A stretch of DNA of 64,000 nt, from the NCBI RefSeq assembly GCF_018881715.1, contig NZ_JACVPW010000002.1:186001-250000 (forward strand). Direction: 5' to 3'. Positions 6,505 through 20,394 of this stretch are shown in pieces. A program made the position numbers and the translations under genes. Source of the stretch: Polynucleobacter parvulilacunae. Lineage in GTDB: Bacteria > Pseudomonadota > Gammaproteobacteria > Burkholderiales > Burkholderiaceae. The stretch's first letter is position 1. The number at the start of each line of letters is the position of its first letter. The notes beneath the pieces were generated by a model. It searched no databases. It was not told the origin of the DNA and saw only the letters and a program-made list of their open reading frames with translations.

Positions 6505-7803
6505 CTAGGTGGCTATCCGATCCTTAGGAAGGCGGAGTATAAAAGTACTACCCTTACCCGGCGTGCTTTCAATAATGAGCTGAGCCTGATGGCGGCTTGC
6601 AATGTGCTTGACGATTGCTAAACCCAATCCTGTTCCGCCCGTATCCCGGGAGCGACTCCTGTCTACACGATAAAAACGCTCGGTTAATCGTGATAGATGT
6701 TCTGAAGCAATACCAGGGCCAGTATCTGCTACAGAAAATTCACCATACCCTTCAGCGTTCACATCCCATTTCACATTAATTGAGCCATGATCTGGCGTGT
6801 AACGAATTGCATTTGAGACCAAATTGCTGAATGCAGAAAGTATTTCTCTTTCATCACTTAATAGTGAAGCAGGATTTTGAACTTCAAAGCCCAAGCTATG
6901 CTTACCTTTAGACAATGCCTCAGCATCATTTCTTAGTAAAGCCATCAACGTTTCAGGATTGACTTTTTTACTAGCAGCAGGTAATGAGTTGGCCTCTAAA
7001 TTAGCGAGCGTCAACAAATCCTCAACCAAACTTTTCATACGCTGTGCTTGAGACATCATCATCTCGAAATACTGATCACGCTGACCCTTCTCAAGCTCTA
7101 AGGTTTGGACTGTTTCTAGAAATCCCATTAGAACTGTAATGGGCGTTCTCATCTCATGAGAAACATTGGCAACGAAATCGCGTCGCATTGCGTCTGCTTT
7201 TTGCAAGTCGGTGACATTTTGAACCAGCAAAAGATGGCGCTGATTTCCGAATGGAAATAATTGCAGCATTAGACTGAGGCTGCTGTTAGGCCCCATTCTC
7301 TCTAAAAGCAAGGGTTCATCAAAATTGCGCTTATTAATGTATTGGATAAATTCAGGACGTCGAATCAGGAAGTTAATTCGCTGCATGACATCGCGCTTAA
7401 AATTCAATCCAAAAAAACGCTCGGAGATTGCATTGCACCACTCAATCTGATCGTTTTCATCCAACATCAAAATGCCATTAGGGGATGCTTGAAAGGCCTC
7501 GATAAAGCGATCGTGCTGTTGCTCGATAATCCGCATTCTTTGCTTTAATGCTTTGATCATCCGCTGCAACCTAGACAAGACCTCTTCCCAAAAGCCACTG
7601 GGTAAAGACATCGTCTCAAGTGAGTCAGTCAATATATGCTTTTGTAAACGAGCAAGATTGACGTAGGAATAAACCAAAGGAATGGATAACAAGGAAATGC
7701 TTATATAAATAGCCCATTGAGCACCCCAATTAAAGAGCGCAATAAATGAAACTATCAAGACAAGGAAAACAATGAACGCGAAACGCGATAAGGCAGAAAT
7801 CAT
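6505..7803 (-). CDS. phoR: Phosphate regulon sensor histidine kinase PhoR
   Basis: Inner-membrane sensor kinase that phosphorylates PhoB when phosphate is scarce. It has 432 residues. There are two hydrophobic segments at ~8-50 with almost no periplasmic loop, as is usual for PhoR, then a PAS domain (~95-195), the H-box FVANVSHEMRTPITVLMGF (His near 215), and the ATPase N-box SNAIRYTPD, with DTGPGIA and GGTGLGLAI. It is the last gene of the pst-pho unit, 66 bases after phoB with a strong hairpin between them, so its level may be set lower than that of PhoB. Confidence 0.95.
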   Translation of the reverse strand: MISALSRFAFIVFLVLIVSFIALFNWGAQWAIYISISLLSIPLVYSYVNLARLQKHILTDSLETMSLPSGFWEEVLSRLQRMIKALKQRMRIIEQQHDRFIEAFQASPNGILMLDENDQIEWCNAISERFFGLNFKRDVMQRINFLIRRPEFIQYINKRNFDEPLLLERMGPNSSLSLMLQLFPFGNQRHLLLVQNVTDLQKADAMRRDFVANVSHEMRTPITVLMGFLETVQTLELEKGQRDQYFEMMMSQAQRMKSLVEDLLTLANLEANSLPAASKKVNPETLMALLRNDAEALSKGKHSLGFEVQNPASLLSDEREILSAFSNLVSNAIRYTPDHGSINVKWDVNAEGYGEFSVADTGPGIASEHLSRLTERFYRVDRSRSRDTGGTGLGLAIVKHIASRHQAQLIIESTPGKGSTFILRLPKDRIAT

Positions 7804-7849: not shown

Positions 7850-7870
7850 AAAGCCTAAAAAATAGGCTTT
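7850..7870 (-). terminator. Hairpin with U-tract between phoB and phoR
   Basis: Minus-strand AAAGCCTA-TTTTT-TAGGCTTT (7870-7850) runs into more T residues and begins at the phoB stop codon. It should terminate part of the transcripts before phoR. Confidence 0.65.
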
Positions 7871-8582
7871 AGATTTCGGTTGGCATTTTAGTGATTCGGT
7901 AACCACTGCCCCGTACGGTCTCTATGAAACGATCGCAGTCTACGGGGCTCAAGGCGGCCCTCAAGCGCTTAATATGGACATCAACAGTGCGCTCTTCAAT
8001 ATAAACCTCGTTACCCCAAACATTGTCTAGCAAACTGGTACGGGAATGCACTCGCTCCGGGTTGACCATGAAATACTGCAAAAGCCTATATTCTGTCGGA
8101 CCTAAAGATATTGGCTTGGGATCTGAATTGGGCCAGATCGCTAAGACTCTGTGAGAGCTAGGATCAAGCCTCAGAGGACCTAAAGTAAGAGGTCCGGTAT
8201 CCTCAATTGGAGTCTGTCTACGCAGAAGAGCTTTAACTCTGGCAATGAGCTCTTTGGGTGAGAAAGGCTTGGTGACATAGTCATCAGCCCCTGAATCCAA
8301 GCCCATAACTTTGTCAGCCTCCTCGCTTTTAGCAGTCAGCATCAAAATAGGCAGGCCTCTTGTGCGCTCATTTGCCCTGAGCTCTTTAGCAAACTGAACG
8401 CCAGACTTACCAGGGAGCATCCAGTCTAAGATAATAAGACTCGGCAAATGGTCCTTCATAAGACCCAAGGCAATGTCCGTTTGCAATGCCTTTTCAACCT
8501 CATAACCTGCATGGGTCAAGTTAATTGCAATTAACTCTGCAATGGATGGCTCATCTTCAACAATTAGTATACGGTGAGTCAT
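7869..8582 (-). CDS. phoB: Phosphate regulon response regulator PhoB
   Basis: OmpR-type transcription factor of 237 residues. The receiver domain (~1-120) has the acidic pair EDE, the phospho-acceptor Asp in LIILDWMLPG (~54), Thr in MLTAKSE and Lys in VTKPFSPKEL. The C-terminal winged helix ends in RTVDVHIKRLRAAL and TVRGSGYRI. It is expected to bind the Pho boxes noted at 2561, 13170, 14329 and 16773. It lies 14 bases after phoU in the same operon. Confidence 0.96.
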   Translation of the reverse strand: MTHRILIVEDEPSIAELIAINLTHAGYEVEKALQTDIALGLMKDHLPSLIILDWMLPGKSGVQFAKELRANERTRGLPILMLTAKSEEADKVMGLDSGADDYVTKPFSPKELIARVKALLRRQTPIEDTGPLTLGPLRLDPSSHRVLAIWPNSDPKPISLGPTEYRLLQYFMVNPERVHSRTSLLDNVWGNEVYIEERTVDVHIKRLRAALSPVDCDRFIETVRGSGYRITKMPTEI

Positions 8583-13292: not shown

Positions 13293-14306
13293 TTAAATAA
13301 TCCTCTTTAGCTTTAAGGAAGCAAAAACTGCTGCCCCAGTGACGGACATGAGAGCCATCACCTCATAAAAAGATCCCTTTAGCCCAGGAAGATCTTCCAT
13401 ATTCATACCCATGATCCCCGTTATTAAAGTCATCGGAAGAAAGATCACCGTCATTACGGACAAGACTTGCAAGTTTTTTGCATTAAATTCAGCCACATGG
13501 GCCGCCTGTTCATCTTGTAGCACCTTTGCGCGATCATAAAGACTTGAAATTTCCTGCACCAAGTAGGAGAGAAGATCCAAATCATCATTCAAGCGACTCT
13601 TATCTTCCTCGCTAAACCAATACGGCAGCCGTTTTAGCAGACGGTGCAAGGCAATTAATTCTGGGGAAAAATGCCTCCGAAGTCGACTACATTGAATACG
13701 AATTCTGCCCAGATTTTCGTGTTCTGGAAAATCTCTTCCCTTAAGAAGGTTTTCCTCTAGGTCATCCATATTCTCTGAAAGATGGGCTAAAAGTGTTCTC
13801 AATTGCTCGGCACGTAAATCCAGGAGCTCATGAAACAACTCAATGATGGAGGTGGGATTGAGCTGTCCGCCTCTCAAGTCATAGCGCAATTTGTCAGTCG
13901 TTCTAAGAGGGTTGTTGCGCAAAGAGACCATTAGCCTTGGTCTAACGATCGCCCAAAGGGTGCCTAAACTGGAGTCACCACCCTCCTCTCCAAACTCCTG
14001 CTGAAAATCATTCATGACCATCAGCAAGCAATCATCTAACTTCTCAATTCGCTCCAAGCGGCTGAGATTGACGCCTTCCTGAATCATTTCCACCACACGC
14101 TCAGGTATGAGCGGCGTATTTTCCAGCCAACGCTGAATTTGTGAGTTGGATAGATTTAAGTGCAACCAAATAGACAACTCAGGATTTTCAAGTGCGCCCG
14201 CAATTTCGAATAGAGGAATTTCATAACCACCTCCTGACGAAGGCATGGCCCAAGCAAATACCACACCCGCAACTGGAAAAGGCTTCGAAGTGATCTCTGT
14301 AGTCAT
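13293..14306 (-). CDS. CorA/ZntB-family metal ion transporter
   Basis: A divalent-cation channel-type transporter of 337 residues. It has a large cytoplasmic alpha/beta domain, long helices (~150-275), then two C-terminal membrane segments with the pore motif GMNM (in GITGIMGMNMEDLPG). The N-terminal VFAWAM and SIWLHLNLSNSQIQRWLENTP resemble ZntB more than classic CorA, so Zn or Mg are both possible. I chose the ATG at 14306; the frame extends to a GTG at 14324. A Pho box with a -10 lies so close that the message would start about at this ATG. It has no terminator that I can see. Confidence 0.88.
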   Translation of the reverse strand: MTTEITSKPFPVAGVVFAWAMPSSGGGYEIPLFEIAGALENPELSIWLHLNLSNSQIQRWLENTPLIPERVVEMIQEGVNLSRLERIEKLDDCLLMVMNDFQQEFGEEGGDSSLGTLWAIVRPRLMVSLRNNPLRTTDKLRYDLRGGQLNPTSIIELFHELLDLRAEQLRTLLAHLSENMDDLEENLLKGRDFPEHENLGRIRIQCSRLRRHFSPELIALHRLLKRLPYWFSEEDKSRLNDDLDLLSYLVQEISSLYDRAKVLQDEQAAHVAEFNAKNLQVLSVMTVIFLPMTLITGIMGMNMEDLPGLKGSFYEVMALMSVTGAAVFASLKLKRII

Positions 14307-14312
14307 GGCCGG

Positions 14313-14346
14313 ATTGTATGGCACGTGCGTGACATCAAAATGACAT
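14313..14346 (-). promoter_or_regulatory. Candidate Pho box and -10 for the CorA/ZntB-like gene
   Basis: Minus-strand ATGTCAT-TTTG-ATGTCAC (14346-14329), then exactly 10 nt, then TACAAT (14318-14313). The start of transcription would fall at or within a base or two of the ATG at 14306, implying a leaderless message. Confidence 0.65.
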
Positions 14347-15308: not shown

Positions 15309-15728
15309 ATGCATTATCAAATTATTCCTTTGGAAATGGGCTCTTTGGTGGAGCGCAATATATTCCAGCAATCAAATAAAGAAATTAAGTGCGGAATAGT
15401 CTGGAAATTGGGTTCCGTATTAACCAACATCAAACCTGCATTTATTAAATCCTACGATCCAAATATTGGCATCTGTATTGAGGATATTCCTGGCGGTGAG
15501 ATTAGCAAGACTTATGGCGGAGAAAAAGTTATTTATTTTTTAGATACTGTCACGGAAGATGAGCAAGATGAATTAACGGATATCTTTTATCAAAGCAATC
15601 GAAAATACTCCAAGAGTTATGACGATGTGTTTCATGATCTAGGCTGGCAAAAAGTCAGCTCAGAATCCTATATATTTGGAGAGCTCGAGATTAAGGAATT
15701 GGATCGGTCTCCCGCCACCTATAAATGA
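15309..15728 (+). CDS. Hypothetical protein, coupled to the phosphoesterase gene
   Basis: A 139-residue cytoplasmic-looking protein with no signal peptide or membrane segment. I do not recognise the family. Its stop overlaps the start of the next gene by 4 bases (ATGA at 15725-15728), so the two are translationally coupled. The chain has an acidic middle (TEDEQDELTD) and a Tyr-rich region (FYQSNRKYSKSYDDVFHD). GGAGC stands 7 nt before the ATG. Confidence 0.7.
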   Translation: MHYQIIPLEMGSLVERNIFQQSNKEIKCGIVWKLGSVLTNIKPAFIKSYDPNIGICIEDIPGGEISKTYGGEKVIYFLDTVTEDEQDELTDIFYQSNRKYSKSYDDVFHDLGWQKVSSESYIFGELEIKELDRSPATYK

Positions 15729-16705
15729 AGATGAAATCCTTTAAAGTATTTTTATCTGCGCTACTCCTGACTTGCTCTTTTGTAGCCTGCGCTCAGTCGC
15801 TTGAGTCTTTCCAATTTATTGCCTTGGGCGATATGCCCTATAAGCTCCCAGACGATTATGTTCGCTATGAAAGATTAATTACAGAAATCAATAAAGCAAA
15901 ACCAAGCTTTAGCGTCTTTGTCGGGGACACCAAATCAGGCTCAACACCCTGTAGCGATGAATATAACCAAAAGATTAAGGGCTACTTCAATCAATTTTCT
16001 GCTCCACTTATCTATAGCATTGGAGACAATGAATGGACCGATTGTCATCGCCCACTAGCGGGATCTTATGACCCTATTGAACGCTTAGACAGCCTTCGCA
16101 ACACTTTCTTTAGCGCTCGGAAAAGTCTAGGCTCACAGCAAATTAATCTCACAAGACAAGCAGATGTTGATCCGCAGCACAAGAAGTTTGTTGAAAACTC
16201 GTATTGGGTAAAAAATCAATTTTTATTTGTGAATGTGCATATACCTGGATCTAACAATAACTTCGAGCGGAATGAGCAAGCAAAAGCGGAATACTTGGAA
16301 CGTAATCAGGCGAATTTAGACTGGATTCAACGCGCCTTTGACCTTGCCTCAAACAAGGGGTATTTGGGAATTATTTTTTGCTACCAGGCCGATATGTTTT
16401 ATACGCCGTCACAAGCAACTAATACAGATAGCGGCTATCGAGACACTTTGCACATCCTCAGCTCCAATTCGCAAGAGTTTAAAAAGCCCGTACTCTTAAT
16501 TCATGGGGATAGCCATCGACTCATTCTTGATCAACCCTTAAGAACGGTTGATCAAAAGGACGTTCTAGAGAATGTTCTTCGTCTGGAATTAATGGGTGCA
16601 GACCAAGTCCAGGCAGTAATGATTGGGGTTAATCCAAAGTCTGAGCAACCTTTTAGCTTTTCGCCGATTTTACTAAGACAAAATATGGGTACTCCAAAAC
16701 CCTAA
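15725..16705 (+). CDS. Exported metallophosphoesterase-like protein
   Basis: A 326-residue calcineurin-like phosphoesterase. There is a signal peptide with a possible lipobox (LLTCSFVACAQS, Cys near 21). Metal-site motifs appear in the usual order: ALGDMPY (Asp ~35), FVGDTKSG, SIGDNEWTDCH and LIHGDSHRL. Located outside the cytoplasm near the pho genes, it may release phosphate from an organic ester, but no Pho box is clear upstream of 15309. The canonical GNHD/E is here GDNE, as in several secreted relatives. Confidence 0.8.
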   Translation: MKMKSFKVFLSALLLTCSFVACAQSLESFQFIALGDMPYKLPDDYVRYERLITEINKAKPSFSVFVGDTKSGSTPCSDEYNQKIKGYFNQFSAPLIYSIGDNEWTDCHRPLAGSYDPIERLDSLRNTFFSARKSLGSQQINLTRQADVDPQHKKFVENSYWVKNQFLFVNVHIPGSNNNFERNEQAKAEYLERNQANLDWIQRAFDLASNKGYLGIIFCYQADMFYTPSQATNTDSGYRDTLHILSSNSQEFKKPVLLIHGDSHRLILDQPLRTVDQKDVLENVLRLELMGADQVQAVMIGVNPKSEQPFSFSPILLRQNMGTPKP

Positions 16706-16772
16706 AAGCTGATTAAGCGCGCTTTAGACCCTTCCAAGCAATTGGACAGTACTTTGATTTTCAGACTGTGAA

Positions 16773-16817
16773 ATGTCATCAAAATCACATCAACCTGTCA
16801 TATTTGAATTGTAAAGT
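16773..16817 (+). promoter_or_regulatory. Extended Pho box (three half-sites) and -10
   Basis: Plus-strand ATGTCAT (16773), ATCACAT (16784) and CTGTCAT (16795-16801) recur every 11 bases. Exactly 10 nt after the last is TAAAGT (16812-16817), with the same geometry as the pstS and phoA sites. It fires toward a region with no gene. Confidence 0.7.
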
Positions 16818-16821
16818 TGAG

Positions 16822-16966
16822 TTCTACTTATGGGAGATGAGGTGTAATTCTCTCGTTTCTGGTTACGAATAGTTTGTACCAACAGCCCATAGGTAACCAA
16901 ATTAGTGACTCTATTGAAATATGATGAGCTAAGAAAAAGCCACCCCGCAGGATGGCTTTTTATTTA
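16822..16966 (+). ncRNA. Candidate Pho-controlled small RNA
   Basis: About 145 nt between the predicted start of the promoter at 16773-16817 and a hairpin plus TTTTTATTT ending near 16965. The only internal ORFs are 5 and 11 codons without good ribosome sites. GGTTAC (16861-16866) can pair with GTAACC (16893-16898) to form an internal stem-loop. The phosphoesterase gene ends 117 bases before the predicted start, and the next gene lies on the other strand. I infer a phosphate-starvation sRNA; the RNA itself has not been seen. Confidence 0.45.
16939..16965. terminator. Bidirectional terminator
   Basis: GCCACCC-CGCA-GGATGGC (16939-16956) has one mismatch. It is followed by TTTTTATTT on the plus strand and by TTTTTC on the minus strand, so it can end both the candidate sRNA and the hydrolase gene at 16982. 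Confidence 0.75.
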
Positions 16967-16981
16967 AGAGGCCGACTATCT

Positions 16982-18280
16982 CTAGTTTTGAGGGCAGGCA
17001 TTAGCCAATGGTTTGCCAGCAACACGATCCTTGACCCATTGGAGATACATGGGCGCTGAGACACCAGGAGTCGTAAAGTGGGTTTGCTCACCTGGCAACT
17101 GATTCCTTCCAATATTTGCACCCATCGTGCACATTTGCTTTTGATACAGCTCATGCATTACAGGAGGAACAGCAGTATCTTTTGTGCCCCAATAAATTAC
17201 CACTGGTGCCACCGGTTTTACAGGCTTCACGCTGCCATCAATAAATGCCTTAATCCATGCCAAGGAATTAGTGGCTGTTGGCTTCAAGAGGGACTTATAA
17301 CTATCTCCATAGGCATAGTTAAAGGTGTCAGACATAACATGTACGCATTTATTGCTCGCTAGTTTCTCAACAACTTTTGCGCCTTCATCTGTTAGCACAT
17401 CGGTCAACTTTAGGTTTGGGTATGCAGCCTGCGTACCCCAAAGACCCATCACATAGTGAGCAAACAGGAAGACATTTGGGACATTGGCCTGAGTAAATCC
17501 GTTCATAAGCTTGGTCGCCCCAGCCTCATCGGTGGGCGGATTTGACAACATTACTGCAACATCGTCGGGCGCCAATGCAACAAATCCAAGGTATTGCAGA
17601 TCATCAGCAGCAGTCCCTTTTTGAGCTTGATAGTCCGGTAAGCTTGCAGCTGCAATAGTAGCCCCACCGCCCTGCGACCAACCGTAAATAATGGTCTTTT
17701 TGCCGGCGCCCACTTCTTTCATCGAGCTGGCAGCTCTCGCAGAGTTAATTGCGTCTCTGCCGTTTGTTTGAGCTACTGCGTATTGATGCTTACCACCGCC
17801 ACCTTGACCTTGATAGTCAGTCGCAACGATGACATAACCCTCTTTAATAAACTCTTCCACATTTGGAATGCCGTAATCTGTCCAAGAATTTCCACCCATT
17901 AAAAAATATTCATTTAATGGAGCGGTAGGATCAATAATCTGCGAAGGGCCGCAATTTTGAGCAGAACCAGTTGTGCCATGCGCCCAAGCCAAAATTGGCC
18001 TACCTTCTTTAGGAGGTGTTCCAACAGGAGAAATGATTACCCCTGTAGCAATCGTCTTGCGCTCACCAACATCTGATGAGATGTAAGCAATCTTCCAAGC
18101 TTGAGCACCCTTTATTGATGTCTTAATCTGCTCTTTTTTAATGATTTGACCCAATTTGCCATTGGGATTCATTTTCATAGCGGATTCATAAAATGGGGCT
18201 AACGGTGGTTCAGCATGTACAGCAGAAGAAAGCACCCCAAGCAAAGTACCGAACACCAAACCAACTAAAGAATTTTTCAT
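16982..18280 (-). CDS. Secreted alpha/beta hydrolase, secretory-lipase family (copy 1)
   Basis: A 432-residue exported hydrolase. The signal peptide ends near AVHA-EPP. The nucleophile elbow is GWSQGGG (Ser202), the acid is probably Asp in YWGTKDTAVPP and the base His in EQTHFTTPG. AHGTTG near residue 100 forms the oxyanion region. Cysteines near 110, 313, 382 and at the C-terminus suggest disulfides. It resembles the secretory lipase (LIP) family, and an ester or lipid substrate is likely. A paralogue lies at 19024-20319 on the same strand, separated by a small exported protein gene. Confidence 0.85.
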   Translation of the reverse strand: MKNSLVGLVFGTLLGVLSSAVHAEPPLAPFYESAMKMNPNGKLGQIIKKEQIKTSIKGAQAWKIAYISSDVGERKTIATGVIISPVGTPPKEGRPILAWAHGTTGSAQNCGPSQIIDPTAPLNEYFLMGGNSWTDYGIPNVEEFIKEGYVIVATDYQGQGGGGKHQYAVAQTNGRDAINSARAASSMKEVGAGKKTIIYGWSQGGGATIAAASLPDYQAQKGTAADDLQYLGFVALAPDDVAVMLSNPPTDEAGATKLMNGFTQANVPNVFLFAHYVMGLWGTQAAYPNLKLTDVLTDEGAKVVEKLASNKCVHVMSDTFNYAYGDSYKSLLKPTATNSLAWIKAFIDGSVKPVKPVAPVVIYWGTKDTAVPPVMHELYQKQMCTMGANIGRNQLPGEQTHFTTPGVSAPMYLQWVKDRVAGKPLANACPQN

Positions 18281-19023: not shown

Positions 19024-20319
19024 CTAGTTTTGAGGGCATGCATTTACCAACGGCTTTCCAGCAATACGATCCTTCACCCATGCCAAATAGAATGGCTTAG
19101 ATGTTCCCGGGGTCGTGAAATGAGATTGCTCTCCTGGCAACTGCATTCTTCCAACATTGCCACCCAATTTGCATGCTTGCTCTTGATAGAGCTTATGCAT
19201 CATTGGTGGAACTGCCGTGTCCTTGGAGCCAAAGTAAATCTGAATTGGGGCAATTGGTTTTGCAACAGGCACCCCACCCTTTAGCATCGCCTCAGCCCAA
19301 GCAAGAGTGTTAACTGGTTTTTGCTTTAATAAATTTGCGTAGCTAACTCCATAGTTAAAGTTAAATGTATCGCTAGCTGCATGCATACATTTATTGCTGT
19401 AAATATCATTAACGACTTTTACACCTTCATCAGTAAAAATGTCTGATAACTTCAGATTAGGGAATGCAGCCTGAGTCCCCCAATAAAACATCGTTGCATG
19501 GGTGAAGTTAAAGACGTTATCCAAAAACATTTTTTGGGAGTCTTGGAAGTATTTATCAGCAGTTGCTTGATCACGTTTACCTGCTGGTGCAAGAATAGAA
19601 ATATCTTGAGGTGCTAAGGCAACAAAACCAACGATATCAAGATTGTCAGAAGCTGTGCCAGTTTGCTTAACGTATTCAGGCATTCCAGCCAAAGCAATCG
19701 CAGCGCCACCGCCTTGAGACCAGCCATATACCAATGTCTTTTTATTGGCGCTTGCTTCTTTCATAGAACCAACGGCACGAGCTGCATTGATGGTATCCAT
19801 CGCATTAGTAGCTGCAACACTGTATTGATGTCTGCCGCCACTACCCAAGCCTTGGTAATCGGTCGCCACTACAGCATAACCTTCTTTAATAAATTCTTCT
19901 ATAGCGGGGATGCCATAGTCAGTCCAGGAATTTCCACCAACCAAGAAATACTCATTCAGGGGAACTACTGGATCAATCACTTGTGATGGGCCACAGTTTT
20001 GTGCGGCACCTGTTGTGCCATGTGCCCACGTCATGATGGGGCGACCTCCCGCTGGAGCCTGCCCTACTGGCACAACAACCAATCCGGTTGAAATCGTTTT
20101 ACGACCTGAAATGTCAGAAGAGATATATGCAATTTTCCAAGCCTGCGCACCCTTAACGGAAGTCTCGATCTTTTCCTGCTTGATGACTTGACCCAATTTA
20201 CCCTCTGGGGACATTTTCATGACTGAGGCATAAAATGCTTGCATTGGTGGATCAGCAAAAACCGTGGCTGAGAAAGCAGAGATACCAACCAAAAATAGGT
20301 TGCGCAATAATCCCCTCAT
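19024..20319 (-). CDS. Secreted alpha/beta hydrolase, secretory-lipase family (copy 2)
   Basis: From ATG 20319 the protein has 431 residues. This start has GGGGAG 5 nt before it and begins a proper signal peptide (MRGLLRNLFLVGISAFSATV, then FA-DPP); the frame runs open a further 20 codons upstream. It is colinear with the copy at 16982: GWSQGGGAA, YFGSKDTAVPP, EQSHFTTPG and the C-terminal NACPQN are shared. The two are old tandem duplicates because synonymous positions differ widely. The substrate is unknown. Confidence 0.85.
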   Translation of the reverse strand: MRGLLRNLFLVGISAFSATVFADPPMQAFYASVMKMSPEGKLGQVIKQEKIETSVKGAQAWKIAYISSDISGRKTISTGLVVVPVGQAPAGGRPIMTWAHGTTGAAQNCGPSQVIDPVVPLNEYFLVGGNSWTDYGIPAIEEFIKEGYAVVATDYQGLGSGGRHQYSVAATNAMDTINAARAVGSMKEASANKKTLVYGWSQGGGAAIALAGMPEYVKQTGTASDNLDIVGFVALAPQDISILAPAGKRDQATADKYFQDSQKMFLDNVFNFTHATMFYWGTQAAFPNLKLSDIFTDEGVKVVNDIYSNKCMHAASDTFNFNYGVSYANLLKQKPVNTLAWAEAMLKGGVPVAKPIAPIQIYFGSKDTAVPPMMHKLYQEQACKLGGNVGRMQLPGEQSHFTTPGTSKPFYLAWVKDRIAGKPLVNACPQN

Positions 20320-20394
20320 AACAACTCCCCTTTTATATATAAAACCACCGAAAATCTCAGAAAATAATACACCGGCCAATAAGCCAAAATAAAA

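Follow-up and report, generated by a model that had tools for sequence, protein, structure and literature searches.

The nearest phosphate-linked RNA from a 5' end, going by the part of its description available to us, is LapS, an sRNA derived from the 5'-UTR of lapA in Pseudomonas aeruginosa that is raised in phosphate-depleted medium (PMC12131859). It resembles the RNA predicted here in deriving from the 5' end of a transcript linked to phosphate; unlike the latter it overlaps the lapA coding region, stands in an unrelated gene context and, in that part of the source, is not noted to belong to a family of dispersed copies. The PhoB-induced sRNA acting on rpoS of E. coli, as cited in the accessible text of PMC8829014, follows the same PhoB-to-sRNA logic and, coming from another organism, is likened by this logic alone, and sRNAs acting on phoB, as described in the available part of PMC12506140, represent the reverse logic.

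Structured RNAs have also been described from Polynucleobacter itself. The Polynucleobacter-1 RNA (RF01718) is named for the genus (PMC2864571), but its 141-position model gave no match at positions 16700-17000 of the stretch analysed here up to E 10; it gave none in the surrounding genome either, where the controls likewise gave no match, so that its absence there is not proven. The HRC-28-1, icd-II and carA motifs, going by the part of PMC8632094 that was accessible, are likewise structured RNAs mostly found in Polynucleobacter, but are associated with the genes PRK05408/rpiA, icd and carA, respectively. These genes were not among the neighbours scanned at our locus and at three other loci, the motifs being compared by gene context only, and HRC-28-1 is further set apart by its six stems and its probable location in a 3'-UTR, according to the same source. 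No description of the RNA presented here was found in the open-licence literature, and its absence in print is thus not proven.

The putative Pho-type promoter and its setting

The stretch under study, in the following called the window, comprises 64,000 nucleotides from Polynucleobacter parvulilacunae. An earlier note, based on its letters alone, had proposed a phosphate-starvation sRNA driven by PhoB. The following features lie at the site and around it.

6505-7803, minus strand: phoR (TIGR02966 above cut-off)
7869-8582, minus strand: phoB (TIGR02154 above cut-off)
15725-16705, plus strand: upstream gene of 326 aa, metallophosphatase-like by eye, the anchor of the Pho-type copies
16773-16801, plus strand: triple Pho half-site ATGTCAT-ATCACAT-CTGTCAT in 11-bp steps, found by scan and conserved in nine loci
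16812-16817, plus strand: -10 element TAAAGT after a 10-nt gap from the last half-site, GTAaAGT in nine loci
16982-18280, minus strand: convergent secretory lipase gene (PF03583)

A PhoB-activated promoter is expected to have at least two half-sites resembling CTGTCAT, set at intervals of 11 bp, the last of them ending about 10 nt ahead of a -10 element, and this pattern is found at 16773-16817. The earlier note had correctly read the three half-sites (16773-16779, 16784-16790 and 16795-16801), their recurrence every 11 bases and the TAAAGT 10 nt further on. At up to three mismatches the 29-nt half-site string occurs once in the window, with 0 occurrences expected, and triple half-site and -10 together reach a score of 22.6, a value seen once in the 64 kb, whereas none of 100 dinucleotide shuffles exceeded 20.3, the scoring being our own simple half-site scheme based on the PhoB consensus. 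From the spacing to the -10 element, transcription is predicted to start at about 16823-16825.

PhoB and PhoR are both encoded within the window, as are pstS and an alkaline phosphatase gene, which makes control by PhoB plausible. Upstream of pstS (13187, minus strand) and of the alkaline phosphatase gene (2578, minus strand) there are two half-sites each, with a -10-like TATCGT and GATAGT, respectively, 10 nt on. This is compatible with the geometry that the earlier note held to be the same at pstS and phoA, but since the scan imposed the spacing it provides no independent test of that claim. The top two-half-site score listed for the window belongs to a double Pho-like half-site with TACAAT at 14329-14346 (minus strand), where a gene for a CorA/ZntB-like transporter (13293-14324) begins.

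Since the upstream gene and the lipase gene converge, there is no protein gene for the Pho promoter to serve. The upstream gene product had no match in Pfam or NCBIfam. A second secretory-lipase gene (19024-20379, minus strand, also PF03583) lies near the first, with a 151-aa ORF in between.

A structured RNA family

The promoter points at a predicted transcript of about 142 nt, from about 16824 to about 16965, which has no plausible ORF; the earlier note had given roughly 145 nt. No plus-strand ORF of at least 40 aa starts in it; of at least 20 aa there are three at the locus, one of 34 aa from 16768, which begins upstream of the predicted start, one of 20 aa (GTG) from 16905 and one of 35 aa from 16952, which begins inside the terminator and extends beyond it, and none of these resembles the ORFs of relatives described below. 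The features within the predicted transcript, all on the plus strand, are listed here.

16824-16900, plus strand: conserved hairpin RNA domain (model R1), from alignment, covariance model and fold
16825-16834, plus strand: 5' strand of P1, UACUUAUGGG, with 98.9% of cells paired in 45 distinct rows
16860-16863, plus strand: apical-loop UGGU, which might pair with the tail ACCA (tentative pseudoknot)
16886-16895, plus strand: 3' strand of P1, CCCAUAGGUA, followed by ACCA (16896-16899), from the alignment
16934-16965, plus strand: intrinsic terminator, hairpin and T-run (-12.6 kcal/mol, z -3.4)

As a whole the predicted transcript is more stably folded than shuffled sequences (z -3.0), and the terminating hairpin that had been put forward was confirmed by the fold energy given above, with TTTTTATTT at 16957-16965. 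A simple pattern scan did not list this terminator, probably owing to a stem mismatch. With an A-run on its other side it could act as terminator for the convergent lipase gene as well, and its stretch 16934-16960 recurs near-identically elsewhere in the same genome and in the genus, and is not specific to the window RNA. As sequence features, an own promoter, an own terminator and the lack of a conserved ORF, which characterise a stand-alone small RNA, are all present. The earlier note had suggested a target search in lipase, pst and cyanophycin mRNAs; among the 54 ORF start regions of the window, none gave a convincing interaction (best z -1.97).

The main thing that the earlier note had missed is the structured RNA family in 16824-16900. 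A DNA search of 151 genomes of the genus showed that the stretch of about 16823-16904 recurs elsewhere, often with dissimilar flanks. From the 31 loci obtained, four matching only the terminator stretch or sequence after it (L002, L025, L028 and L030) were left out, and the remaining 27 rows, in which L001 is represented by the window, formed alignment A1, on which the covariance model R1 is based. With search filters that lose weak matches, R1 gave 40 matches in 33 of the 151 Polynucleobacter genomes, in a patchy distribution of one to three copies per genome, and 118 genomes had no match at E 0.001. With the same filters, none was found outside Polynucleobacter in samples of the order (2 of 300 genomes matched, both Polynucleobacter, including the genome of the window itself) and of the family (6 of 150 genomes, all Polynucleobacter; one of 25 genera). 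An exact-pattern scan of 84,980 species genomes yielded 25 stretches, titled Polynucleobacter or metagenome bins of beta-proteobacterial, Betaproteobacteria or Burkholderiaceae origin. Nothing matched the RNA in viral contigs (exact pattern) or in plasmids and phages (blastn), and no Rfam family matched it at gathering score, searches up to E 10 giving only sub-threshold scores. The domain represents an apparently undescribed structured RNA family, genus-specific in the samples searched.

Its consensus fold consists of P1, a near-invariant internal loop AGAUGA/AACAG, and then P2, P3 and P4, with ACCA as the tail. Among the 45 distinct rows of an alignment that was fitted to the structure, 88.4% of cells pair compared to 84.4% in shuffles, and double changes occur in 11 of 24 pairs, with 53 double-changed cells, where 500 shuffles gave 12.9 and slid controls no more than 15; the 27-row MAFFT alignment agrees (25 versus 7.4 in shuffles). 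The fold is clearly supported by this covariation of the inner stems P2 to P4. P1 is nearly devoid of covariation because its sequence barely varies, and its pairing therefore rests on complementarity. P4 is unpaired in 19-21 of the 45 rows, by eye mainly those preceding the 59-aa ORFs (see below). Single-sequence folds recovered P1 in all seven copies tried; the minimum-energy fold of the window copy matches the consensus in P1 only, and the interior of L034 also folds otherwise.

What is conserved is the UACUUAUGGG/CCCAUAGGUA hairpin and not the GGTTAC/GTAACC stem that the earlier note had described. The complement exists (16861-16866 and 16893-16898) but shows no covariation above shuffles, in which 84.7% of cells pair as against 85.0% in the alignment (at most 60.2% in slid controls), and its GTA belongs to P1. 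Just the GGU/ACC part was kept, as a tentative pseudoknot: all three pairs of this conceivable contact between loop and tail can form in 33 of the 45 distinct rows, and L061 shows one double change. A kink-turn, a CsrA site and an anti-Shine-Dalgarno role were considered and dropped by eye.

Promoters and small ORFs around the copies

A strict pattern gives 36 copies of the RNA, the fuller count being 46 (47 alignment rows less the duplicate of the window). By our own reading, 30 of the 46 precede a family of 59-aa ORFs, five precede ORFs with the motif RLIW, and 11, including the window, precede neither. The script had labelled 27 as '59aa', five as 'RLIW', five as 'other' and nine as 'none'; L062 and L057 (from 'other') and L061 (from 'none', the frame being found in its genome) were reassigned to the 59-aa family, and the short unrelated frames of the window, L039 and L044 were counted as no related ORF. 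ATG starts only were admitted in this listing, with GTG and TTG allowed for the window alone. The 59-aa family is acidic (MTTFTTEDRE...EKEPIPFYGY...SSEDLED; e.g., L023, 1605-1784), with one member frame-shifted (L059) and one without ATG (L061). The ORFs of the RLIW copies, of 54-55 aa with RLIWQ, are unrelated to it and represent a second micro-protein family, of about 55 aa and basic (L116 and L117, from 1501). Neither the 59-aa nor the 55-aa ORFs had a match in Pfam, NCBIfam or PHROGs.

In 34 of the 35 ORF-bearing copies the modelled RNA is followed, at a distance of 14-22 nt, by an ATG on its own strand. This arrangement speaks for a cis-acting leader, i.e., a riboswitch-like or protein-bound 5' regulator of the translation or stability of small proteins, of which the window copy would be an orphan drifting out; so does a degenerate stretch in genome G047 (L164), downstream of the metallophosphatase-like gene, which by eye resembles a decayed copy of the RNA. 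We regard this explanation as possible but rather doubtful. The window copy itself does not stand before an ORF of either family, and no element hiding a ribosome site was seen, by eye, in the copies. Matches to the 59-aa protein were also obtained in G087 (E 7e-9) and, over part of its length, in G103, in neither of which the RNA model found a match, and the pairing of RNA and ORF is therefore not absolute. The absence of a match from 118 of the 151 genomes, together with the relic-like stretch in G047, suggests that the RNA may be lost or dispensable in many species.

The distribution of the Pho box also argues against a leader on its way out. Nine copies score at least 17.3 for the triple half-site (the window, L034, L035, L037, L041, L044, L048, L051 and L087) and the remaining scored copies at most 14.3, L096 being one that could not be scored. 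Half-sites, -10 element and spacing are kept in all nine loci, conservation in related genomes being a check that the earlier note had named. Seven of the nine lack both ORF families (with only unrelated short frames in the window and L044) and still keep the Pho box; L041 and L048 carry an RLIW ORF. Eight have the upstream gene of the window directly before them, the locus of L087 being too short upstream to tell. This gene has matches at E 1e-40 in 62 of the 151 genomes, and of 30 such loci fetched the RNA stands directly behind it in eight and is a relic, by eye, in one; in three more (G069, G030 and G080) a script flagged a copy within 800 nt. The latter copies lack the triple Pho box (L039, L091 and L033 score 11.4-12.9), so that this box is not a fixed part of the upstream-gene neighbourhood.

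Across five genomes that have neither ORF, 74 of 78 hairpin positions do not vary (mean pairwise identity 0.97), compared to 44 of 57 in the Pho promoter, 32 of 60 upstream, 8 of 31 in the gap between hairpin and terminator and 8 of 34 in the terminator. The terminator sequence changes, yet by eye the window, L034, L035 and L087 retain hairpin and T-run; the terminator of L037 is interrupted by an apparent end of an insertion sequence. Because the hairpin is kept in ORF-less genomes while its flanks drift, a functional RNA is preferred to a dying leader.

Among the 33 upstream regions that were aligned, 22 copies of the 59-aa group have a different conserved region, TTTCACC..TAAAA followed by TAGA and then AAT. 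Under both promoter types the predicted start falls, by eye, at the 5' foot of P1. Upstream of the 59-aa copies (e.g., L024 and L042) inverted arms TTGTCACATTTGA ... TCAAATGTGACAA and a conserved AATTTCACCTCTTAAAATTT-like block are visible by eye, which are perhaps the sites of another regulator.

A search for relatives of the 55-aa ORF led to 57-aa ORFs sharing RLIWQHL, which stand behind another long hairpin (model R2), exemplified by the following locus.

L121, 1367-1455: R2 leader, together with 10 other loci in alignment A3, preceding 57-aa RLIWQHL ORFs

The 11 sequences of A3, from which L129 was left out as a leader without the conserved 3' half, show 20 double-changed cells as opposed to 8.0 in shuffles, the number of pair types not exceeding that in shuffles. 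R2 has 20 matches in 17 of the 151 genomes of the genus and none in the window's own genome; no Rfam family matched it, its loci giving only sub-threshold matches elsewhere (FsrA, plastid families) and a tRNA. R2 ends in GGCAACCA (AGCAACCA in L128) and the window RNA in GGUAACCA, a closing U-A pair followed by ACCA being common to both, which suggests that the two classes may be a common type of leader. Mimicry of a tRNA acceptor or recognition by RNase P were considered as leads for the ACCA after the U-A pair in both classes.

A leader module as a probable Pho-controlled RNA

We consider it probable that the window encodes a PhoB-driven non-coding RNA which was made from a 5' leader module and is kept for the RNA itself. 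Phosphorylated PhoB would bind the triple half-site and give rise to an RNA of about 142 nt from about 16824, ending at the terminator near 16965, of which the 5' 77 nt or so would fold into the conserved extended hairpin, perhaps closed by the UGGU/ACCA contact between loop and tail. It would be a non-coding member of a family that consists mostly of 5' leaders on mRNAs for small proteins, and in the window and four near relatives, all having neither small ORF, selection would maintain the RNA alone behind the Pho promoter. The RNA would act in trans, probably by way of a protein or ligand recognising P1 and the internal loop, both near-invariant, and not via a long antisense seed. The promoter pattern and its conservation, the covariation of the inner stems, the absence of an ORF and the conservation of the hairpin above that of its flanks are direct results of the computation. 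Confidence in the mechanism is moderate, as transcription and PhoB binding are predicted and the target search within the window gave no convincing candidate; for the window RNA we infer PhoB control, transcription and action in trans from its sequence and that of its relatives.

The proposal of a PhoB-driven sRNA is thereby partly supported, being right in outline and too narrow: promoter pattern, half-site conservation in nine genomes, the site between convergent genes and the nearby pho genes speak for it, but the body of the RNA belongs to a genus-wide family that elsewhere is mostly a 5' leader under a different upstream region.

The near-invariant inverted arms and the patchy distribution of one to three copies per genome would also fit an element acting as DNA, i.e., a dispersed repeat or a mobile or recombination site with the arms TACTTATGGG/CCCATAGGTA as protein binding sites. 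Compensatory changes in P2 to P4 are at odds with this, as are the shared orientation of the copies, their nearly fixed spacing to the promoter motifs (33 regions) and to the start codon (34 copies), and the lack of matches in the viral contigs, plasmids and phages searched, which together render such an element very improbable. Equally hard to credit is an assembly of unrelated parts, in which the hairpin at 16934-16960 would simply terminate both convergent genes and the half-sites would be inert, for even though this terminator is a stock sequence and transcriptionally inert PhoB sites are reported for E. coli in the accessible part of PMC10294691, half-sites, -10 element and spacing are conserved in nine loci and the conserved RNA domain begins where transcription should.

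A wider reading, which we put forward only tentatively, is that Polynucleobacter possesses modular 5' RNA domains of two sequence classes, with a long hairpin, a closing U-A pair, an ACCA tail and a possible pseudoknot, which can be plugged in behind different promoters and before unrelated tiny proteins, and of which the Pho locus would carry a free-standing, PhoB-controlled version. If true, the constant part would be the RNA, so that the RNA and not the micro-proteins, two families of which without a Pfam or NCBIfam model match are added here, would be the main functional unit. Polynucleobacter is an abundant freshwater bacterium with a small genome, and the waters it inhabits are often short of phosphorus. 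In this genus, a conserved RNA behind a predicted Pho promoter, from a family that had no Rfam match and that comes with differing promoters and differing protein cargo, may offer an example, open to testing, of how a leader RNA turns into an independent regulator.
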